The notes beneath the pieces are model-generated. The model saw only the letters and a program-made list of their open reading frames with translations. It ran no database searches and was not told the origin of the DNA. The position numbers and the translations under genes were made by a program. Positions 8,441 through 29,204 of a stretch of DNA of 37,579 nucleotides are shown here, one piece after another. The stretch spans positions 1 to 37,579 of the forward strand of contig DUQO01000070.1 in assembly GCA_012837765.1 (NCBI GenBank), written 5' to 3'. Origin of the DNA: Mollicutes bacterium. GTDB lineage: Bacteria > Bacillota_I > Bacilli_A > RF39 > UBA660. Every line of letters starts with the position of its first letter. The first letter of the stretch is position 1.

Positions 8441-8950
8441 TTACGGAAGTGGTGGTAAATCACCTGTATTTCTACTATCATATTGATATACAATGTTGAT
8501 ATCACTTTTTATACCTAACGATTCATTTTCAATTGGAACAAAAATTCGTAAAATTGAATCGTTTTTGTCTTCGGGCGAACTAACTTTAGTTGTATCAAAT
8601 AAAATTGATCCTGATAAGGTAAAATCTTCTGGAAGTTTATCTGATATTCCACCATATTGAATGGTTCTACTACTAGTATCAACTTTAAATCTTCTTGTTG
8701 TTAAATCTTTAAAAGTTATGTCGTAACAATTTGTCCCACATGAATCATAACGATAAAATTCACGATGAACTAAATCTTCTTGAACAGAATTGGTGATACT
8801 TCCTTTCAAAATAGTAATGTTTACATTGCTTTGATAAAAACTTATTTTATCTAGTAAATCTAAAACCGATTTAAACATTCCTACTGCTACTAATGAAATA
8901 ATTACAAAACTAACTATTAATTCAATAGTCGACATACCTTTATTATTCAC
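8441..8950 (-). CDS. Type IV pilin-like protein (pseudopilin) 2
   Basis: It has a short basic leader ending in Gly, NNKG, then MSTIELIVSFVIISLVAVG: the prepilin peptidase site with Glu at mature position 5 and a 20-residue hydrophobic helix. The rest is a globular domain with a possible disulfide loop (YDSCGTNCYD). The start is GTG at 8950, fixed by a strong GAGGAGG eight bases upstream. It follows the other pilin gene by 17 bases and is clearly in one operon. The pilus type is unknown: it could belong to a competence pseudopilus or a surface pilus. Confidence 0.85.
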   Translation of the reverse strand: MNNKGMSTIELIVSFVIISLVAVGMFKSVLDLLDKISFYQSNVNITILKGSITNSVQEDLVHREFYRYDSCGTNCYDITFKDLTTRRFKVDTSSRTIQYGGISDKLPEDFTLSGSILFDTTKVSSPEDKNDSILRIFVPIENESLGIKSDINIVYQYDSRNTGDLPPLP

Positions 8951-8967
8951 AAATACACCTCCTCGAT

Positions 8968-9462
8968 TTATAACGCATAATATGCGCTTGCATACTCACC
9001 ATTTTTTAGGATAACAATTACACGATATGTATTTGGTTTATCATCTTTAACCTTTTGAGTTCTTAAAAAATCAAGAAAAGAAGCATCAATGTTATATGAT
9101 GAATAATTAGTTATTAAATCGTTAATGTTATAGGCAGAGATGAATACACTTTTAACATTTAAAAGATCAATTAATTCATTGTAATAATTAACATTTTCAA
9201 AATCATATGTTGTGATATCTATAAGAGGTGTATTTTGATTGATAGAGTTCGTGACAGGATTTAATTGTTGATTTTGCTCTATAAAAATTTTAACATTTCG
9301 AGCGGCATGAATTGCTTCTACCGTATTATACTTAGAATTTCGCTCATAATTATGATAAAAACTTGATATTTGAGAATAAAATAATACTAATATAGCTGCT
9401 ACTATCCCCACTACTACAATTGTTTCAGCTAGAAAAAAGCCTTTGTTATTTAACTTTATCAT
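8968..9462 (-). CDS. Type IV pilin-like protein (pseudopilin) 1
   Basis: The N-terminus MIKLNNKG / FFLAETIVVVGIVAAILV is a classical class III signal: cleavage after Gly8, Glu at mature position 5, and an extended hydrophobic helix for both membrane anchoring and filament packing. The rest (about 130 residues) is a polar, Asn/Tyr-rich globular domain. The ATG at 9462 has AGAGGGG upstream. It is first in a two-gene pilin operon, divergent from the PilB-like ATPase, which is the motor expected to polymerise such subunits. Confidence 0.85.
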   Translation of the reverse strand: MIKLNNKGFFLAETIVVVGIVAAILVLFYSQISSFYHNYERNSKYNTVEAIHAARNVKIFIEQNQQLNPVTNSINQNTPLIDITTYDFENVNYYNELIDLLNVKSVFISAYNINDLITNYSSYNIDASFLDFLRTQKVKDDKPNTYRVIVILKNGEYASAYYAL

Positions 9463-9480
9463 TTTTCGCCCCTCTTATCA

Positions 9481-9509
9481 TTGATATTAAACTATAATTA
9501 TTATATAAT
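9481..9509 (+). promoter_or_regulatory. Sigma-A promoter for the pilus ATPase
   Basis: TTGATA (9481-9486), a 17-base spacer and a perfect TATAAT (9504-9509) point towards the ATPase gene 55 bases downstream. Confidence 0.7.
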
Positions 9510-9563
9510 AAAAAGTAGATAAATACTAGATACTGTTAAAAGAATAAAAAGAGGTGAACAAAT

Positions 9564-10901
9564 TTGATCAGAACTTTTGATTACGATAAATTGCCCATCG
9601 TTGAAGTTGTTAACGAGATAATACTCGACGCAGTCAGAAGAGGCGCTAGCGATATTCACTTCGACCCTATGAATGAATATATGAAGGTTAGAATTAGGAT
9701 TGATGGCGAATTAACTGATTATACAACTGTTCCCAACACTTTAAAAAAGAATTTAATTACGCGTATTAAAATTATTTCTGGTATGAATATCACAGAAGTT
9801 AGACTTCCACAAGATGGTTCTATACAAACTGTATTAAAAGATACCTCGCTTGACTTACGTGTTTCTTCCCTACCATGTAGTGATGGAGAAAAAATAGTTA
9901 TTCGTATTTTAGACTATTCGATGAGTTTAAAAGGTCTTGAACATTTAGGTTTTAGTGATCATAATTATCGTAAAATTCTTGAAATGATTGCAAAACCAAG
10001 TGGTATCATTCTTGTTACTGGTGCTACTGGTTCTGGTAAATCAACAACTGTTTACTCTATTTTACAAAAATTAAATCGTGAAACAACCAATGTCATTACA
10101 GTTGAAGATCCAGTTGAAATGGATATTGAAGGAATCAATCAAGTACAAGTAAATAGTGAAATCGGCTTAACTTTTGCTAATGTTCTTCGTTCTGTTTTAA
10201 GACAGGACCCAAATATAATTATGATTGGGGAAATTCGTGATAACGAAACAGCTCGTATTGCTGTTAGAGCTTCAATTACAGGACACTTAGTTTTATCTAC
10301 AATACATACTAATAACTCTTTAAACACTATTGAGCGTTTATTAGATATGGAAGTTGAAAGATATTTACTAGCTAGTGCATTAGAAGGAATTGTTTCGCAA
10401 AAACTTGCTAGAAGACTTTGTGAAGAATGTCGTAGTATGAGACCTGCTAATCAATATGAAAAAGACCTTATTAAAAATGTATTAAATATTGACATTAAAG
10501 AAGTTTATTCCGCTGAAGGTTGCGAGAAATGTAATAATGGTTATAAAGGCCGTATTGCTATACATGAAGTATTACTTATCAATCAAGCAATAAGAGATGC
10601 TATAGCAGAAGGAACTTCGAAAGAAGCTTTAAGAGAGATGGTATATAAATCAGATGTTACTACTCTTTTACAAGATGGTCTTGAAAAAGTTGTAATAGGT
10701 TATACAACATGTGAAGAAGTATTAAAATTGATTGAATTAGACGATGATATTGATGGTAAAACAAAAGAATATCGTTACAGTTTAAATAAAGCTTTAGAAG
10801 AAAGTGACTTAAGGAAAAGCGCTGGTGACGTAACAATTAGTGATAACATCGTTTTATCAGAAGTTGATATTTTGGAAGAAATTCCAGATCAAACTCAATA
10901 A
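9564..10901 (+). CDS. Type IV pilus/competence assembly ATPase (PilB/GspE/ComGA family)
   Basis: Cytoplasmic hexameric motor that drives pilin polymerisation. Motifs: Walker A GATGSGKST at 153-161, Asp box around VITVEDPVE (177-185), Walker B IIMIGEIRD (218-226), His box HLVLSTIHTN (241-250), and a C4 zinc motif (C286, C289, C320, C323). It has an N2-like domain but not the extra N-terminal domain of full PilB. An acidic tail of about 60 residues after the catalytic core is longer than in Bacillus ComGA (about 356 aa). The start is TTG at 9564, chosen because GAGGTGA lies six bases upstream. No PilC/ComGB platform protein or prepilin peptidase is in the window. Confidence 0.92.
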   Translation: MIRTFDYDKLPIVEVVNEIILDAVRRGASDIHFDPMNEYMKVRIRIDGELTDYTTVPNTLKKNLITRIKIISGMNITEVRLPQDGSIQTVLKDTSLDLRVSSLPCSDGEKIVIRILDYSMSLKGLEHLGFSDHNYRKILEMIAKPSGIILVTGATGSGKSTTVYSILQKLNRETTNVITVEDPVEMDIEGINQVQVNSEIGLTFANVLRSVLRQDPNIIMIGEIRDNETARIAVRASITGHLVLSTIHTNNSLNTIERLLDMEVERYLLASALEGIVSQKLARRLCEECRSMRPANQYEKDLIKNVLNIDIKEVYSAEGCEKCNNGYKGRIAIHEVLLINQAIRDAIAEGTSKEALREMVYKSDVTTLLQDGLEKVVIGYTTCEEVLKLIELDDDIDGKTKEYRYSLNKALEESDLRKSAGDVTISDNIVLSEVDILEEIPDQTQ

Positions 10902-22972: not shown

Positions 22973-24088
22973 ATGAATTTAAATAGACAAGAAAGTCTAA
23001 AGAAAAGAAAAAAACACTCTTGTAAATACGCAAAAATGATATTGCTTGAAATAGCAATAGGAACTATTTTGATTAGCTCTAACTTCTATTTTAAAAAACG
23101 GAATGTTGCTGAGGGTATAGCAATCGTTAATGATAATGAGCAAAACGAAAATGAAAATGAGGAAATATCAATGATTATTCAACCTACAAGTATTACACCA
23201 TCTGTTACACCTACACCTATAATCATTGATGAAGCTAAAAACATTAAGGAAACTGTGCCTGAGCAACCAAAGAAATTAGTAGCAATTACCTTTGATGATG
23301 GTCCTAGCAAAAGTAGGACATTAAAAATCTTAGATATTTTGGAAAGAAACAATTGTACGGCTACCTTTTTCGTACTAGGGAAAAATGCTAAAAGCATGCC
23401 TGATGTCATAAAAAAAACATATGATGCTGGTCATGAAATTGGAAATCACACTTATGAACATACTGATTATAGAACCATGAGTGAAGATGAAGCTTTAGAA
23501 AACTTTGAGAAAACACAACAAGTTATTAAAAATATTACAGGCGAATACCCTAGGCTTTTTAGACCAAGGGGTGGCGCCTACAATGAAAAAATGCAAGAAT
23601 ACCTTCCTTGTCCATTGATTTGGTGGAAAAAAGATTCAAACGATTGGCGAAGTACATTAACAGATGAAGAAGTAACAGATAACGTTCTAAACGGATTAAA
23701 AGAAGGCGATATTATATTGTTTCATGATATCCAAGAAAGAACTGTATCAATTGTTGAAGATATAATAAAAAAGATTCAACAAAAAGGATTTGAAATAGTA
23801 AGTGTATCTGAAATGTTTGATTATTATGAAATAGATTTGGATAATGGAACTGTATATTTTAGTACTTACAAAAAGGATGCATTAGAAAAAGAAGAACCTG
23901 TTACTAAAAAGGAACCTATTATTAAAAAAAATACTAACAATACGAAAACTAAAACTAATAATAATAACAGTAATAGCAATACACATTCTAAAAAAATGGA
24001 ACTTCTTAGAATGTTAAAAATTTATAACAATGAAATTAAGACTAAAATAAAACATAATAATATGTATGTAAAAAGAATTTGCTACTAA
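22973..24088 (+). CDS. Membrane-anchored polysaccharide deacetylase (NodB domain)
   Basis: Likely removes acetyl groups from peptidoglycan or another wall glycan outside the cell. A basic N-terminus and one membrane anchor (about residues 21-40) precede a Pro/Thr linker (PTSITPSVTPTP). The NodB domain runs from about 102 to 282: TFDDGP with D108/D109, NHTYEH with H159 and H163, FRPRGGAYN around R197, and LFHDI with H251. Motif 3 is unusual (RPRGG in place of RPPYG). After the domain is a Lys/Asn/Thr-rich tail of about 70 residues with a poly-Asn stretch and a basic end. It is a single-gene unit on the plus strand with its own promoter and terminator. Confidence 0.92.
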   Translation: MNLNRQESLKKRKKHSCKYAKMILLEIAIGTILISSNFYFKKRNVAEGIAIVNDNEQNENENEEISMIIQPTSITPSVTPTPIIIDEAKNIKETVPEQPKKLVAITFDDGPSKSRTLKILDILERNNCTATFFVLGKNAKSMPDVIKKTYDAGHEIGNHTYEHTDYRTMSEDEALENFEKTQQVIKNITGEYPRLFRPRGGAYNEKMQEYLPCPLIWWKKDSNDWRSTLTDEEVTDNVLNGLKEGDIILFHDIQERTVSIVEDIIKKIQQKGFEIVSVSEMFDYYEIDLDNGTVYFSTYKKDALEKEEPVTKKEPIIKKNTNNTKTKTNNNNSNSNTHSKKMELLRMLKIYNNEIKTKIKHNNMYVKRICY

Positions 24089-25995: not shown

Positions 25996-26190
25996 TTATG
26001 CTACTCTATCGCGACGATTATGTTTCGATGCATTCCTTATAGCTGCTTGTTTACGTTCTTTTCTTTCAATTCCAGGTTTTGTATAATGCTCTCTTTTTTT
26101 AAATTCAGAAGGGACACCACTTCTAGCTACCTTTTGTTTAAATTTTTTCAAGGCACTTTCAATATTCCCGTTTACAACAACACGAGTCAT
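25996..26190 (-). CDS. rpsU: 30S ribosomal protein S21
   Basis: A 64-residue, strongly basic ribosomal protein. It begins MTRVVVNGNIESALKKFKQK and contains GVPSEFKKREHYTKPG, then an Arg/Lys-rich helix, all typical of Firmicute S21. The ATG at 26190 follows AAGGGAGGG. It has its own strong promoter (26222-26250) and leads into murE and yqeY. Confidence 0.97.
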   Translation of the reverse strand: MTRVVVNGNIESALKKFKQKVARSGVPSEFKKREHYTKPGIERKERKQAAIRNASKHNRRDRVA

Positions 26191-26250: not shown

Positions 26251-26280
26251 GTGTAAACTTTACCTTTTTCTTACTTATAT

Positions 26281-26308
26281 GTAAAAAAGAGTTGTTAACT
26301 CTTTTTAC
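26281..26308 (-). terminator. Terminator of the bacteriocin operon
   Basis: A stem GTAAAAAGAGTT / AACTCTTTTTTAC with a three-base loop and a T6 run on the minus strand, six bases after the stop of the second peptide gene. Confidence 0.85.
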
Positions 26309-26313
26309 AGTAT

Positions 26314-26475
26314 TTAAAGCTTACATATTGAATTTGATGTAATACGTCTAATAGCATTTCCCAGTGATCTTCCTATATCAAGAAGAGTATTCATTCCCCT
26401 TACAAATGCATTAATGAGTGTCCCTGATATAGATCCTCCTCTTACGTTCATCAATTCTATATTATCTAATTCCAT
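26314..26475 (-). CDS. Putative two-peptide bacteriocin precursor, peptide B (53 aa)
   Basis: Not previously recognised by me as a known peptide. The ATG at 26475 has a perfect AGGAGG five bases upstream. The precursor starts MELDNIELMNVRGG, a 14-residue double-glycine leader with the hydrophobic spacing seen in PCAT substrates. The predicted mature part has 39 residues, starting SISGTLINAFVRGM and ending NSICKL. It is cationic and amphipathic and has a GxxxG motif (GRSLG) and one Cys two residues from the end. It follows peptide A by nine bases and is followed by a terminator. The pairing with A, both with GxxxG motifs, fits class IIb bacteriocins. It could instead be an immunity or signal peptide, though the GG leader argues for export. 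Confidence 0.82.
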   Translation of the reverse strand: MELDNIELMNVRGGSISGTLINAFVRGMNTLLDIGRSLGNAIRRITSNSICKL

Positions 26476-26484
26476 CACTACCTC

Positions 26485-26622
26485 CTATTTATTACATTTT
26501 AACGGTCTTACATAGCCATCAATAACACCAATAAGAAAAGTAACTAGACTTCCTATTGCTATCCATAATCCAAAACCACCACCATAAATATTATTTAATT
26601 CTTTATCATCAATTAAAATCAT
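26485..26622 (-). CDS. Putative two-peptide bacteriocin precursor, peptide A (45 aa)
   Basis: The ATG at 26622 overlaps the TGA of the transporter gene (ATGA), with AAAGGGTGG as Shine-Dalgarno in the transporter's last codons. The leader is MILIDDKELNNIYGG, with the ELxxIxGG pattern of double-glycine leaders. The mature part has 30 residues: GFGLWIAIGSLVTFLIG, then VIDGYVRPLKCNK. It is strongly hydrophobic in the middle, with GVIDG as a GxxxG motif and a C-terminal RPLKC tail that resembles lactobin/cerein-type class IIb peptides. A single Cys lies three residues from the end, as in peptide B. The ABC peptidase directly upstream has the activity needed to cut after GG. Confidence 0.88.
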   Translation of the reverse strand: MILIDDKELNNIYGGGFGLWIAIGSLVTFLIGVIDGYVRPLKCNK

Positions 26623-28691
26623 GCTTCCACCCTTTCTTCTTTTATTTTTTTAAGATCATCAAGCAAAATCACCTTATCGTATAAATAAGCATTATCTAAA
26701 CGATGTGATATAACAATAATCGTCTTTGAAGAGTAATTTGAAAAAATGTTTTTTAATACTTTATTTTCTAATGAAACACTCATTTCATTCATACTTTCAT
26801 CAAATATGAAAACACAACTATCTTTTAACAATGCTCTTGCTATCATAATTCTTTGCTTCTCACCACCAGATAAATTAGCCCCGTCTTCTTCAATTAATGT
26901 GTGATAATCTAAGTTTCGTTTTTTTAGTATTTCGTCAGCACAAGTTAAACCTATAACATAATCAATATTTTTATCACTTATATTACGATTTAATTTAATG
27001 TTATTATAAAATGAATCTTTAAATAAAGTTTCATTTTGTGAAACATAACAGATGCTATTTCTAATTAAATTAACAGGATAAAAAGACATATCATTTTCGT
27101 TAATATATAGTTGATTTTTTTCCACATCAAGGTGCCGCATTATTATTTTAGCTATAGTGGATTTTCCACAACCTGATGTACCTGTAATCATAACTTTTTC
27201 ACCCTTATTAATTTGCAAATCAATTCCTTTAATAACATTATCCAATCCATTATAAGAATAACTCAATTGATTAAGTTTTATATTGTTAATTTCTATTTTT
27301 TCTGTTGTTTCTTCATTTTCTTTCACATCAAAGAGCTCACTTATTCTTACTAAAGCACTCATAGATGCTCTAAGTAAAGGTTCAATATCAAAGATATTTT
27401 TTAATGGTTCAACAAAAAAGTTCAAGAAGAAAATAAATAAAATTAATTCGCTAACTGATAAAACTTCGAATGAAATAAAGATACTTCCTAAAAAGAATAT
27501 TAGCAAAAGACCTATACCTAATATGTAATCTTTAATCATCTTTATAAAATTATATTTTTTATAAAAAGCATAATTATTATTTATAAAGTTATCATATTTT
27601 TGCATTACTTTATTATATTGTTCTTTTTCAATACCTAAATTTTTTATAGTATTTATTCCTTTTATTGTTTCGATAAAAGATGATGTTACAATCGCTTCTT
27701 CCTCTTGACTTTGTATAACATAATATTTAACCCACTTATTATAAATAATTACAACACTTCCATATAAACCCAACATTAATATGACTATTAAAAATAATTT
27801 TATGTTTATTATACACATTACAATCATCGAACCTATTACAAGTACTAAATCAATTAGTAGTATAGTTGCTGACCTACTTATAAGTTCCTTAACGTAACTT
27901 AAATCATTAAGACGAGATACTATATCACCGGTTTCTCTTGAATTAAAATATCTTATAGGAAGTAATAAAAGATGTTTAAAAGTACTTTCCATCATTCTTT
28001 TTTCTATATTATGATTTACATTTAATAACAATTGACCTCTAACATAATCAATTATTGTTTTAATAATCAATACAATTATAAAAAAGATAAATAATGGTAG
28101 TTTAGAGTTTAATGATGAACTATAATCATCAACTACTACTTTAAAATAAAAAGTACTTATAATGTTAAAAACAGTATATAAAATGGATAGTATAAAAATA
28201 AGGAAAAACTTTTTACGATGTGGCTTGATTATTTGATTAACTATTCTTCTGATTTTTTTTAGGGATTTTATATTATCAATTTTTCTAATTGGGTGAAGTG
28301 TAATAACAACGCGAGTCCAAACTTGGTTAAAGTCGTCAAAGGTATATTTTTTATAACCAAAAGCTGGATCTGCAATAATAATTGTTTTGTTTTTTATATC
28401 TATTTTATCAATCACCACAAAATGGTGATATATTTTATCTATAATAATATGTGCTATGTCAAATGCTTTTAATTTGCTACATTCATTATATTTATAACCT
28501 CTCGCATCAAACCCTACATTTTCAGCTGCTTTTATAAGGTTAAAAGCAGTTGTTCCATTTCTATCTGTCTTCATCATTTCACGTAGTCGTTCTAAAGAAC
28601 TATTACCACCATAATGCCTCATTACCATCAATAGACAAGCTGCCCCACAATCTCTTAAATTTTCTTGTCTAACAAATTTCCTTTTAAACAT
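26619..28691 (-). CDS. Peptidase-containing ABC transporter (bacteriocin processing/export)
   Basis: A 690-residue PCAT that cuts double-glycine leaders and exports the mature peptides. The C39 peptidase domain (about 1-135) has Q9 and C15 in QENLRDCGAAC, H90 in YHHFVVID, and D108 in ADPAFG, a complete catalytic set. The membrane domain (about 155-430) has six spans and contains YFNSRETGDIVSRLND. The ATPase domain has Walker A GTSGCGKST, signature LSGGEKQR, and Walker B CVFIFDESM. The ATG at 28691 follows GAGGAGGTGA. The two peptide genes follow directly and overlap its stop, which identifies its substrates. No HlyD-like accessory gene, kinase-regulator pair or modification enzyme is adjacent. 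Confidence 0.95.
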   Translation of the reverse strand: MFKRKFVRQENLRDCGAACLLMVMRHYGGNSSLERLREMMKTDRNGTTAFNLIKAAENVGFDARGYKYNECSKLKAFDIAHIIIDKIYHHFVVIDKIDIKNKTIIIADPAFGYKKYTFDDFNQVWTRVVITLHPIRKIDNIKSLKKIRRIVNQIIKPHRKKFFLIFILSILYTVFNIISTFYFKVVVDDYSSSLNSKLPLFIFFIIVLIIKTIIDYVRGQLLLNVNHNIEKRMMESTFKHLLLLPIRYFNSRETGDIVSRLNDLSYVKELISRSATILLIDLVLVIGSMIVMCIINIKLFLIVILMLGLYGSVVIIYNKWVKYYVIQSQEEEAIVTSSFIETIKGINTIKNLGIEKEQYNKVMQKYDNFINNNYAFYKKYNFIKMIKDYILGIGLLLIFFLGSIFISFEVLSVSELILFIFFLNFFVEPLKNIFDIEPLLRASMSALVRISELFDVKENEETTEKIEINNIKLNQLSYSYNGLDNVIKGIDLQINKGEKVMITGTSGCGKSTIAKIIMRHLDVEKNQLYINENDMSFYPVNLIRNSICYVSQNETLFKDSFYNNIKLNRNISDKNIDYVIGLTCADEILKKRNLDYHTLIEEDGANLSGGEKQRIMIARALLKDSCVFIFDESMNEMSVSLENKVLKNIFSNYSSKTIIVISHRLDNAYLYDKVILLDDLKKIKEERVEA

Positions 28692-28726
28692 CTTCTCACC
28701 TCCTCATGTATATTTTTCTATAAAAC

Positions 28727-28755
28727 ATTTTATTTTCCTCTATTTTGTCACTCAA
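28727..28755 (-). promoter_or_regulatory. Sigma-A promoter of the bacteriocin operon
   Basis: On the minus strand TTGAGT (28750-28755), 17 bases, TAAAAT (28727-28732), about 36 bases before the transporter ATG. No clear operator repeat is seen, so expression may be constitutive or controlled elsewhere. Confidence 0.6.
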
Positions 28756-28768
28756 TTTTATAATTGAT

Positions 28769-28797
28769 AAAAAAAGTTATGTTTAAACATAACTTTT
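28769..28797 (-). terminator. Terminator after the superoxide reductase gene
   Basis: Stem AAAGTTATG/CATAACTTT (28773-28781 and 28788-28796), a six-base loop and a T-run on the minus strand. The stem begins within the TAA stop codon. It isolates the bacteriocin operon from the gene upstream. Confidence 0.85.
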
Positions 28798-29179
28798 AAC
28801 TTTTTACATATACGTTTTTCCATAATCCATGAATATTACAATATTCATATACTTCTAGTGTTTTAAAATCTTCATCTATTTTAAAAATTGCTTTAGGCTC
28901 ATCGCCTGGTTTTAATTTAATTTTTTTAACTTTATTATTGTATAAAAGTACAATCCATTCGATGTAGTGTTTTTCTTCCATAGGATGTAAAATACTTCCT
29001 ACTTCTACAAAAACTTCATTGTCAACTACTTTTATTTCAGGCAAATGTTTTTCATTTCCTTCATCTGTTGTGTTAGGAAGCATTTTTTCCATCGGCTCAC
29101 CACAACAAACTAATTCCCCACCGCCATTTTTTACAAGTTCTACAATATTTCCACAGATATTACATTTGAAGAAGTGCAT
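28796..29179 (-). CDS. dfx: Desulfoferrodoxin (superoxide reductase)
   Basis: Reduces superoxide to peroxide without making oxygen, typical of anaerobes. The N-terminal desulforedoxin domain has a rubredoxin-like Fe centre: CNIC and a CC pair (VCCGEPM). The C-terminal catalytic domain has the Fe ligands in HPMEEKHYIEWI and CNIHG. The first His ligand is expected in the segment EGNEKHLP. I chose ATG 29179 (MHFFKCNICG), since the AGGTGGTGAGG preceding it is the Shine-Dalgarno; a GTG at 29197 lies just before that. Length 127. It has its own promoter and terminator. Confidence 0.93.
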   Translation of the reverse strand: MHFFKCNICGNIVELVKNGGGELVCCGEPMEKMLPNTTDEGNEKHLPEIKVVDNEVFVEVGSILHPMEEKHYIEWIVLLYNNKVKKIKLKPGDEPKAIFKIDEDFKTLEVYEYCNIHGLWKNVYVKS

Positions 29180-29204
29180 TACCTCACCACCTTTCACTAC
29201 TTTA

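Follow-up and report, generated by a model that had tools for sequence, protein, structure and literature searches.

On the minus strand of the 37,579-nt stretch of DNA analysed here (the window), a C39-peptidase ABC transporter (PCAT) gene is followed by genes for two short peptides, A and B, with double-glycine (GG) leaders. The reading that we prefer, at a probability of about 0.5, is that these three genes are a core, vertically inherited, class IIb-like export cassette and that A and B act together on a membrane, most likely that of competitors. In order to weigh this reading, we consider below the genes themselves, their distribution in the family, the additional genes that accompany them in relatives and the other roles that the pair might have.

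Organization of the transporter and peptide genes

The minus-strand order of the region is dfx, PCAT, A, B, hairpin, rpsU, and its features are the following:

26619..28691, minus strand: PCAT, C39 peptidase, ABC membrane domain and ATPase, 690 aa (Pfam PF03412, PF00664, PF00005)
26485..26622, minus strand: precursor peptide A, 45 aa (conservation and alignments)
26578-26622, minus strand: leader of peptide A, MILIDDKELNNIYGG
26488-26577, minus strand: mature part of peptide A, GFGLWIAIGSLVTFLIGVIDGYVRPLKCNK, 30 aa
26314..26475, minus strand: precursor peptide B, 53 aa (conservation and alignments)
26434-26475, minus strand: leader of peptide B, MELDNIELMNVRGG
26317-26433, minus strand: mature part of peptide B, SISGTLINAFVRGMNTLLDIGRSLGNAIRRITSNSICKL, 39 aa
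26481..26486, minus strand: AGGAGG ribosome-binding site of B, overlapping the stop codon of A (read from the sequence)
26280..26309, minus strand: terminator-like A+T-rich hairpin with a U-rich arm, 3' of B (fold z-score)
25996..26190, minus strand: rpsU, conserved downstream neighbour, outside the cassette (PF01165)
28796..29197, minus strand: dfx, desulfoferrodoxin gene, upstream, context only (PF01880, PF06397)

All of the gene-level statements of the initial annotation hold on this strand: the PCAT, A and B, the ATGA overlap of the PCAT stop with the A start, the 9-nt gap between the A stop and the B start, and the AGGAGG. B comprises 53 aa from the ATG at 26475, and would comprise 54 aa if an in-frame GTG were used. 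As in class IIb systems, the two precursor genes are adjacent on the same strand, and a single transcription unit is predicted. The annotation had also bracketed the genes with a promoter and a terminator, of which only the latter has a counterpart: the 3' hairpin folds at -9.5 kcal/mol (z -3.1), although it is A+T-rich and was missed by a consensus terminator scan, one that demands more G-C pairs. The promoter is unsupported, since promoter-like sites in the region were at chance level (24 found versus 25.4 expected). Upstream of the PCAT, the position of dfx is taken by other genes in genome G002. Elsewhere in the window, a possible small pilus or pseudopilus cluster at 8441-10901 comprises genes for two pilin-like proteins whose N-terminal segments are of the methylation type and, on the opposite strand, a gene for a GspE/PilB-like ATPase. 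The plus-strand gene at 22973-24088, on the strand opposite to its neighbours, encodes a protein that resembles polysaccharide deacetylases and has a linker rich in Thr and Pro and a long tail rich in Asn, Thr and Lys.

The transporter is complete, as had been annotated. Its C39, ABC_membrane and ABC_tran domains all score far above the Pfam cut-offs, and the Cys, His and Asp of the C39 domain (C15, H90 and D108), together with the oxyanion Gln (Q9), are invariant in two orthologues from the same genus. It is the sole strong C39 protein of its genome, and the closest solved structure is PCAT1. We do not assign it to the TIGR01193 subfamily because its score of 412.6 bits is below the cut-off of 523.85. 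Residues 628-638, after Walker B, read FIFDESMNEMS where ABC ATPases usually have DEATSALD; this unusual D-loop is alike in the two same-genus orthologues.

Both peptide leaders end in GG and both fit the PCAT leader consensus L(-12)xxxE(-8)L(-7)xxxxGG that is recognized by PCAT1 (PMC6959990), A with I-12, E-8, L-7 and GG and B with L-12, E-8, L-7 and GG. The combination of double-glycine leaders with a dedicated C39 ABC transporter is likewise that of class IIb. Transporter architecture and leader consensus are also the same in PCAT1-CtA of Clostridium (Acetivibrio) thermocellum; however, CtA is a single precursor, with 24 residues in the leader and 66 in the cargo (PMC6959990), whereas the window encodes two short peptides. 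These sequence features support A and B as a linked pair of putative PCAT substrates, which would very probably be exported by the adjoining PCAT.

Mature A is hydrophobic with a charge of +2, and mature B is cationic and amphipathic with a charge of +4 and a helical moment of 0.75. The calculated average masses are 3250.9 Da for mature A and 4176.9 Da for mature B. Both peptides are predicted to be helical by structure models, which cover only the rows of the window and of L011 (apparently one of the two same-genus genomes), show single helices and are mute on pairing. Short cationic, hydrophobic or amphipathic helical peptides of this kind are typical of class IIb. A GxxxG motif, annotated in both mature parts, means little in a single genome, since it occurred by composition alone in 57% (A) and 34% (B) of shuffled mature peptides; we count it as conserved based on its presence at the same aligned columns in 42 of the 43 homologues of each peptide. 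Each peptide also has an invariant Cys, nearly always its only one, within four residues of the C-terminus. The best-conserved stretch of mature A is a DG-x-x-RP-x-x-C-type tail that hardly varies within the family, which suggests that A has a specific partner.

A and B are real genes. PCAT, A and B occur in the same order in both same-genus genomes, with identities to the window of 72% and 59% for the PCAT, 80% and 66% for A, and 79% and 72% for B. Relative to genome G001, pN/pS was 0.07 for mature A and 0.22 for mature B, ratios that are rough because the peptides are short, compared to 0.29 for the PCAT, 0.23 for murE and 0.09 for rpsU. The mature parts of both peptides are under purifying selection, and we rejected the explanation that the frames are chance ORFs given these ratios and the 66-80% identity of the orthologues.

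Distribution and inheritance of the cassette

A three-sequence profile of A identified matches in 342 of 386 family genomes and 143 of 150 genera, mostly at one copy per genome, and a 43-row profile did so in 225 of 241 genomes of an order sample (204/217 of the good ones), all members of which belong to a single family. For B the corresponding numbers were 198/213 family genomes and 139/148 genera. Given that most of the sampled genomes are ~90% complete drafts, both peptides are close to universal. Outside the family, in a class sample of 395 genomes and a phylum sample of 295 (each of which contains some family members), A had three weak leader-only matches, all in one other family. These matches (in G443, G795 and G836) were rejected as A/B orthologues, being of leader type only and in GG-leader frames of 95-130 aa beside rplU. 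The frames themselves (L131:6039-6431, L132:5911-6198 and L133:5828-6220, all minus strand, located 5' of rplU in a different family of the class) encode GG-leader proteins that are possible PCAT substrates in their own right.

The initial annotation had proposed the co-occurrence of precursors and PCAT in related genomes as a check. One strong C39 transporter was present in all 34 A-positive genomes that were tested and in 5 of 16 A-negative genomes, the other 11 having none. B is present in two of those five, and for another two the frame is either short or near a contig end. A few good genomes (G154, G158 and G081, for instance) have no A, B or C39 transporter. The counts support the conclusion that A, B and the transporter form a co-occurring set that is mostly lost as a unit.

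The small frames are conserved next to the transporter in relatives, a point on which the annotation had made its own reading depend. Of the 42 loci that were fetched, 41 have PCAT, A and B in this order on a single strand, and the remaining one is cut off by a contig end before the PCAT; B followed A in all 42. The only large insertion seen between A and B is a methyltransferase-like gene (L052:5211-5894, plus strand). Downstream, rpsU is a neighbour in 22 of the 42 loci and yqeY in 26. Pairwise distances between PCATs correlated with those between the neighbouring YqeY proteins (r 0.64, p 0.0001, Mantel), as did those of A+B (r 0.44, p 0.0008, Mantel). Mean identity within the family is 52% for A, 45% for B and 37% for the transporter, such that the peptides are the better conserved. 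The cassette is inherited vertically and is a core trait of the lineage and, given that most sampled loci lie beside rpsU or yqeY, it does not have the character of a patchy weapon. The lineage is probably the GTDB order RF39 of the class Bacilli, based on genome size, the sporulation genes yqfC/yqfD, the mycoplasma-like genomes in the class and the RF39 literature (PMC10868615).

Additional genes in the cassettes of relatives

In most relatives the cassette is fuller, in the order PCAT-M-A-B-C, whereas in the window's genus it consists of PCAT-A-B only. Examples of the two additional genes are:

L039:5187-5633, minus strand: M (further cases are the other loci with a PCAT-A gap >300 nt)
L059:4770-4925, minus strand: C, unannotated membrane protein

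M is a protein of ~145 aa with one N-terminal membrane helix, encoded between PCAT and A in 24 of the 42 loci, and there is none beside A and B in the window. Searches of Pfam with M returned nothing convincing, and 7 of 14 members matched the NCBIfam family MAG1140 (NF045999; best 2.3e-5). M may be a shortened HlyD-type accessory protein. MAG1140 is a mycoplasma family with the accession next after that of the Mbov_0121 PCAT (NF045998), and a PCAT followed by an M-like gene is what the relatives share with it. In two mycoplasma-like genomes (loci L145 and L146 of G486 and G536), a PCAT gene and then an M-like gene lie directly upstream of ybeY-cdd-era, genes that are found downstream of the window's cassette as well. 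This suggests an ancient origin for PCAT-M within this part of the Bacilli. The correspondence has its limits, in that no A/B-like genes were found beside the PCAT of L145 or L146, the window's genus lacks M, and the window PCAT scores 312 bits against NF045998, for which the cut-off is 500.

C, a protein of 42-62 aa whose gene overlaps the end of B, was found in 26 of the 42 loci (27 with L067) and is absent from 15. It lacks a GG leader, is basic at the N-terminus and contains a membrane helix, and its C-terminal half is B-like, as judged from a profile-profile comparison with B (E 2e-7, versus E 0.33 for the control of C with A). A Cys is present in the last six residues of 23/26 C proteins, compared to ~12% expected from their own composition. 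C matched no family in Pfam or NCBIfam, and the C profile had no match in the window's genome; since weak matches are often B itself, counts of C over whole genomes are uncertain. Of the loci on the PCAT tree, 22 have M together with C and 14 lack both, and neither gene occurs in the window or its nearest kin. The independent pairs on that tree are too few for M-C co-loss to reach significance.

Possible roles of the A/B pair

If the two peptides are a class IIb-like pair directed at membranes, the PCAT would bind both GG leaders, cut after the GG and export mature A and B. Exported A would span the membrane as a hydrophobic helix and carry an invariant DGxxRPxxC-type tail, B would be a cationic amphipathic helix, and outside the cell the two would pair via their conserved GxxxG faces, possibly aided by the single conserved C-terminal Cys of each. 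The pair would then act on a membrane, in all likelihood one belonging to competing bacteria. In cassettes with C, which excludes the window's genus, this tethered, leaderless B look-alike would probably pair with A at the surface of the producer and serve as decoy immunity or as a receptor.

In its sequence features the pair is a class IIb-like two-peptide system. It is like lactococcin G and carnobacteriocin XY in its adjacent GG-leader precursors, the GxxxG in both peptides and the PCAT, and the relatives add a possible accessory protein, M, and a small membrane protein, C, at a possible immunity-gene site. A class IIb-like mode of action is plausible, as is killing by A and B. Favouring killing, the full cassette of the relatives (two precursors, transporter, M and C) matches the five-gene make-up of class IIb clusters, which includes an immunity gene and an accessory gene (PMC6957408). 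However, the architecture of PCAT, GG peptides and GxxxG is by itself no proof of an antimicrobial, and we do not claim class IIb membership because the window has neither a dedicated immunity gene nor an accessory transport gene beside A and B (candidates being the C and M of relatives) and because neither peptide passes the curated class II bacteriocin models PF11632 (17 bits, cut-off 29.4), PF10439 (12.6, cut-off 27.1), NF038034 (22.7, cut-off 37) and TIGR03949 (12.3, cut-off 21.5). The invariant C-terminal Cys of A and B and the resemblance of the relatives' C to B also set the system apart from class IIb. As such, the "new class IIb operon" of the initial annotation stands in its IIb-like architecture but not as a new, local bacteriocin operon, since nearly all members of the family carry the cassette, by vertical descent.

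Bacteriocins tend to be patchy in distribution, mobile and quick to change, and a near-universal, syntenic and vertically inherited cassette argues against killing. So do the nearly fixed tail of mature A and the absence of the candidate immunity protein C from 15/42 loci and from the window's genus, in all of which A and B persist. A serious, if somewhat less likely, rival is that A and B are a core pair for the producer's own use, either an envelope or membrane component or an A-B(-C) surface assembly, that is exported by the PCAT and not aimed outward. Own use is favoured by near-universality at about one copy per genome, a constant chromosomal neighbourhood, vertical inheritance, strong purifying selection and the many cassettes that lack C, as well as by the precedent of MAM of Faecalibacterium, a GG-leader product that is conserved and specific to its lineage, is invariably accompanied by its PCAT and ends in the envelope (PMC12184118). 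A and B share with MAM their conservation, lineage specificity, GG leader and own PCAT, whereas MAM is a single larger protein, and we claim no sequence relation to it. Against own use, both the architecture and the chemistry of the peptides match class IIb bacteriocins, and the cassette is not strictly essential, given its absence from a few good genomes such as those named above.

An unlikely elaboration is a three-part surface system that is fixed in the order, in which A, B and the tethered B look-alike C each have a cysteine near the end. A would have two possible partners, free B (active) and tethered C on the producer (silenced or anchored), possibly through disulfide exchange. If true, this would be a new form of self-protection or surface assembly and a core trait of these small-genome bacteria, of which the window's genus would have a reduced form without C. 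We consider it very unlikely that A and B are a signalling (pheromone) pair sensed by their own lineage. Quorum-sensing peptides are also PCAT cargo, a conserved sequence fits a shared signal, and 8 of 43 A members had weak ComC matches (best E 0.011), but those matches are of leader type, no receptor kinase or regulator gene lies beside the cassette in the window or is conserved across the 42 loci, and two co-conserved hydrophobic/amphipathic peptides of 30-39 aa would be unusual for a pheromone. The picture implied by the initial annotation, a recently acquired, strain-specific class IIb operon, which the three-gene set alone does resemble, is refuted by the family-wide distribution. That distribution, the rpsU/yqeY synteny and the congruence with YqeY distances also led us to reject any local-acquisition or defence-island reading. 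Recent acquisition further runs counter to searches that reach close relatives only, in which A had no match in plasmids (tblastn), B none in phages (tblastn) and A eight pattern matches in IMG/VR viral contigs, none of them a relative.

Returning to the preferred reading, if A and B kill, they would be an unusual two-peptide bacteriocin that is fixed in a whole lineage and not scattered among strains, with the tethered B look-alike C as candidate immunity. If they do not, hundreds of genomes risk a bacteriocin annotation for what is their own surface biology. Either way, the pair provides a short, synthesizable handle on bacteria that are known here only as assembled genomes. We found no paper that joins RF39 with double-glycine peptides, nor, in the literature searched, the family-wide core distribution, the tethered B look-alike or the shared C-terminal cysteines. 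Judging from the portion of it that was accessible, the IIBacFinder atlas of gut class II bacteriocins may list some of the A/B peptides.
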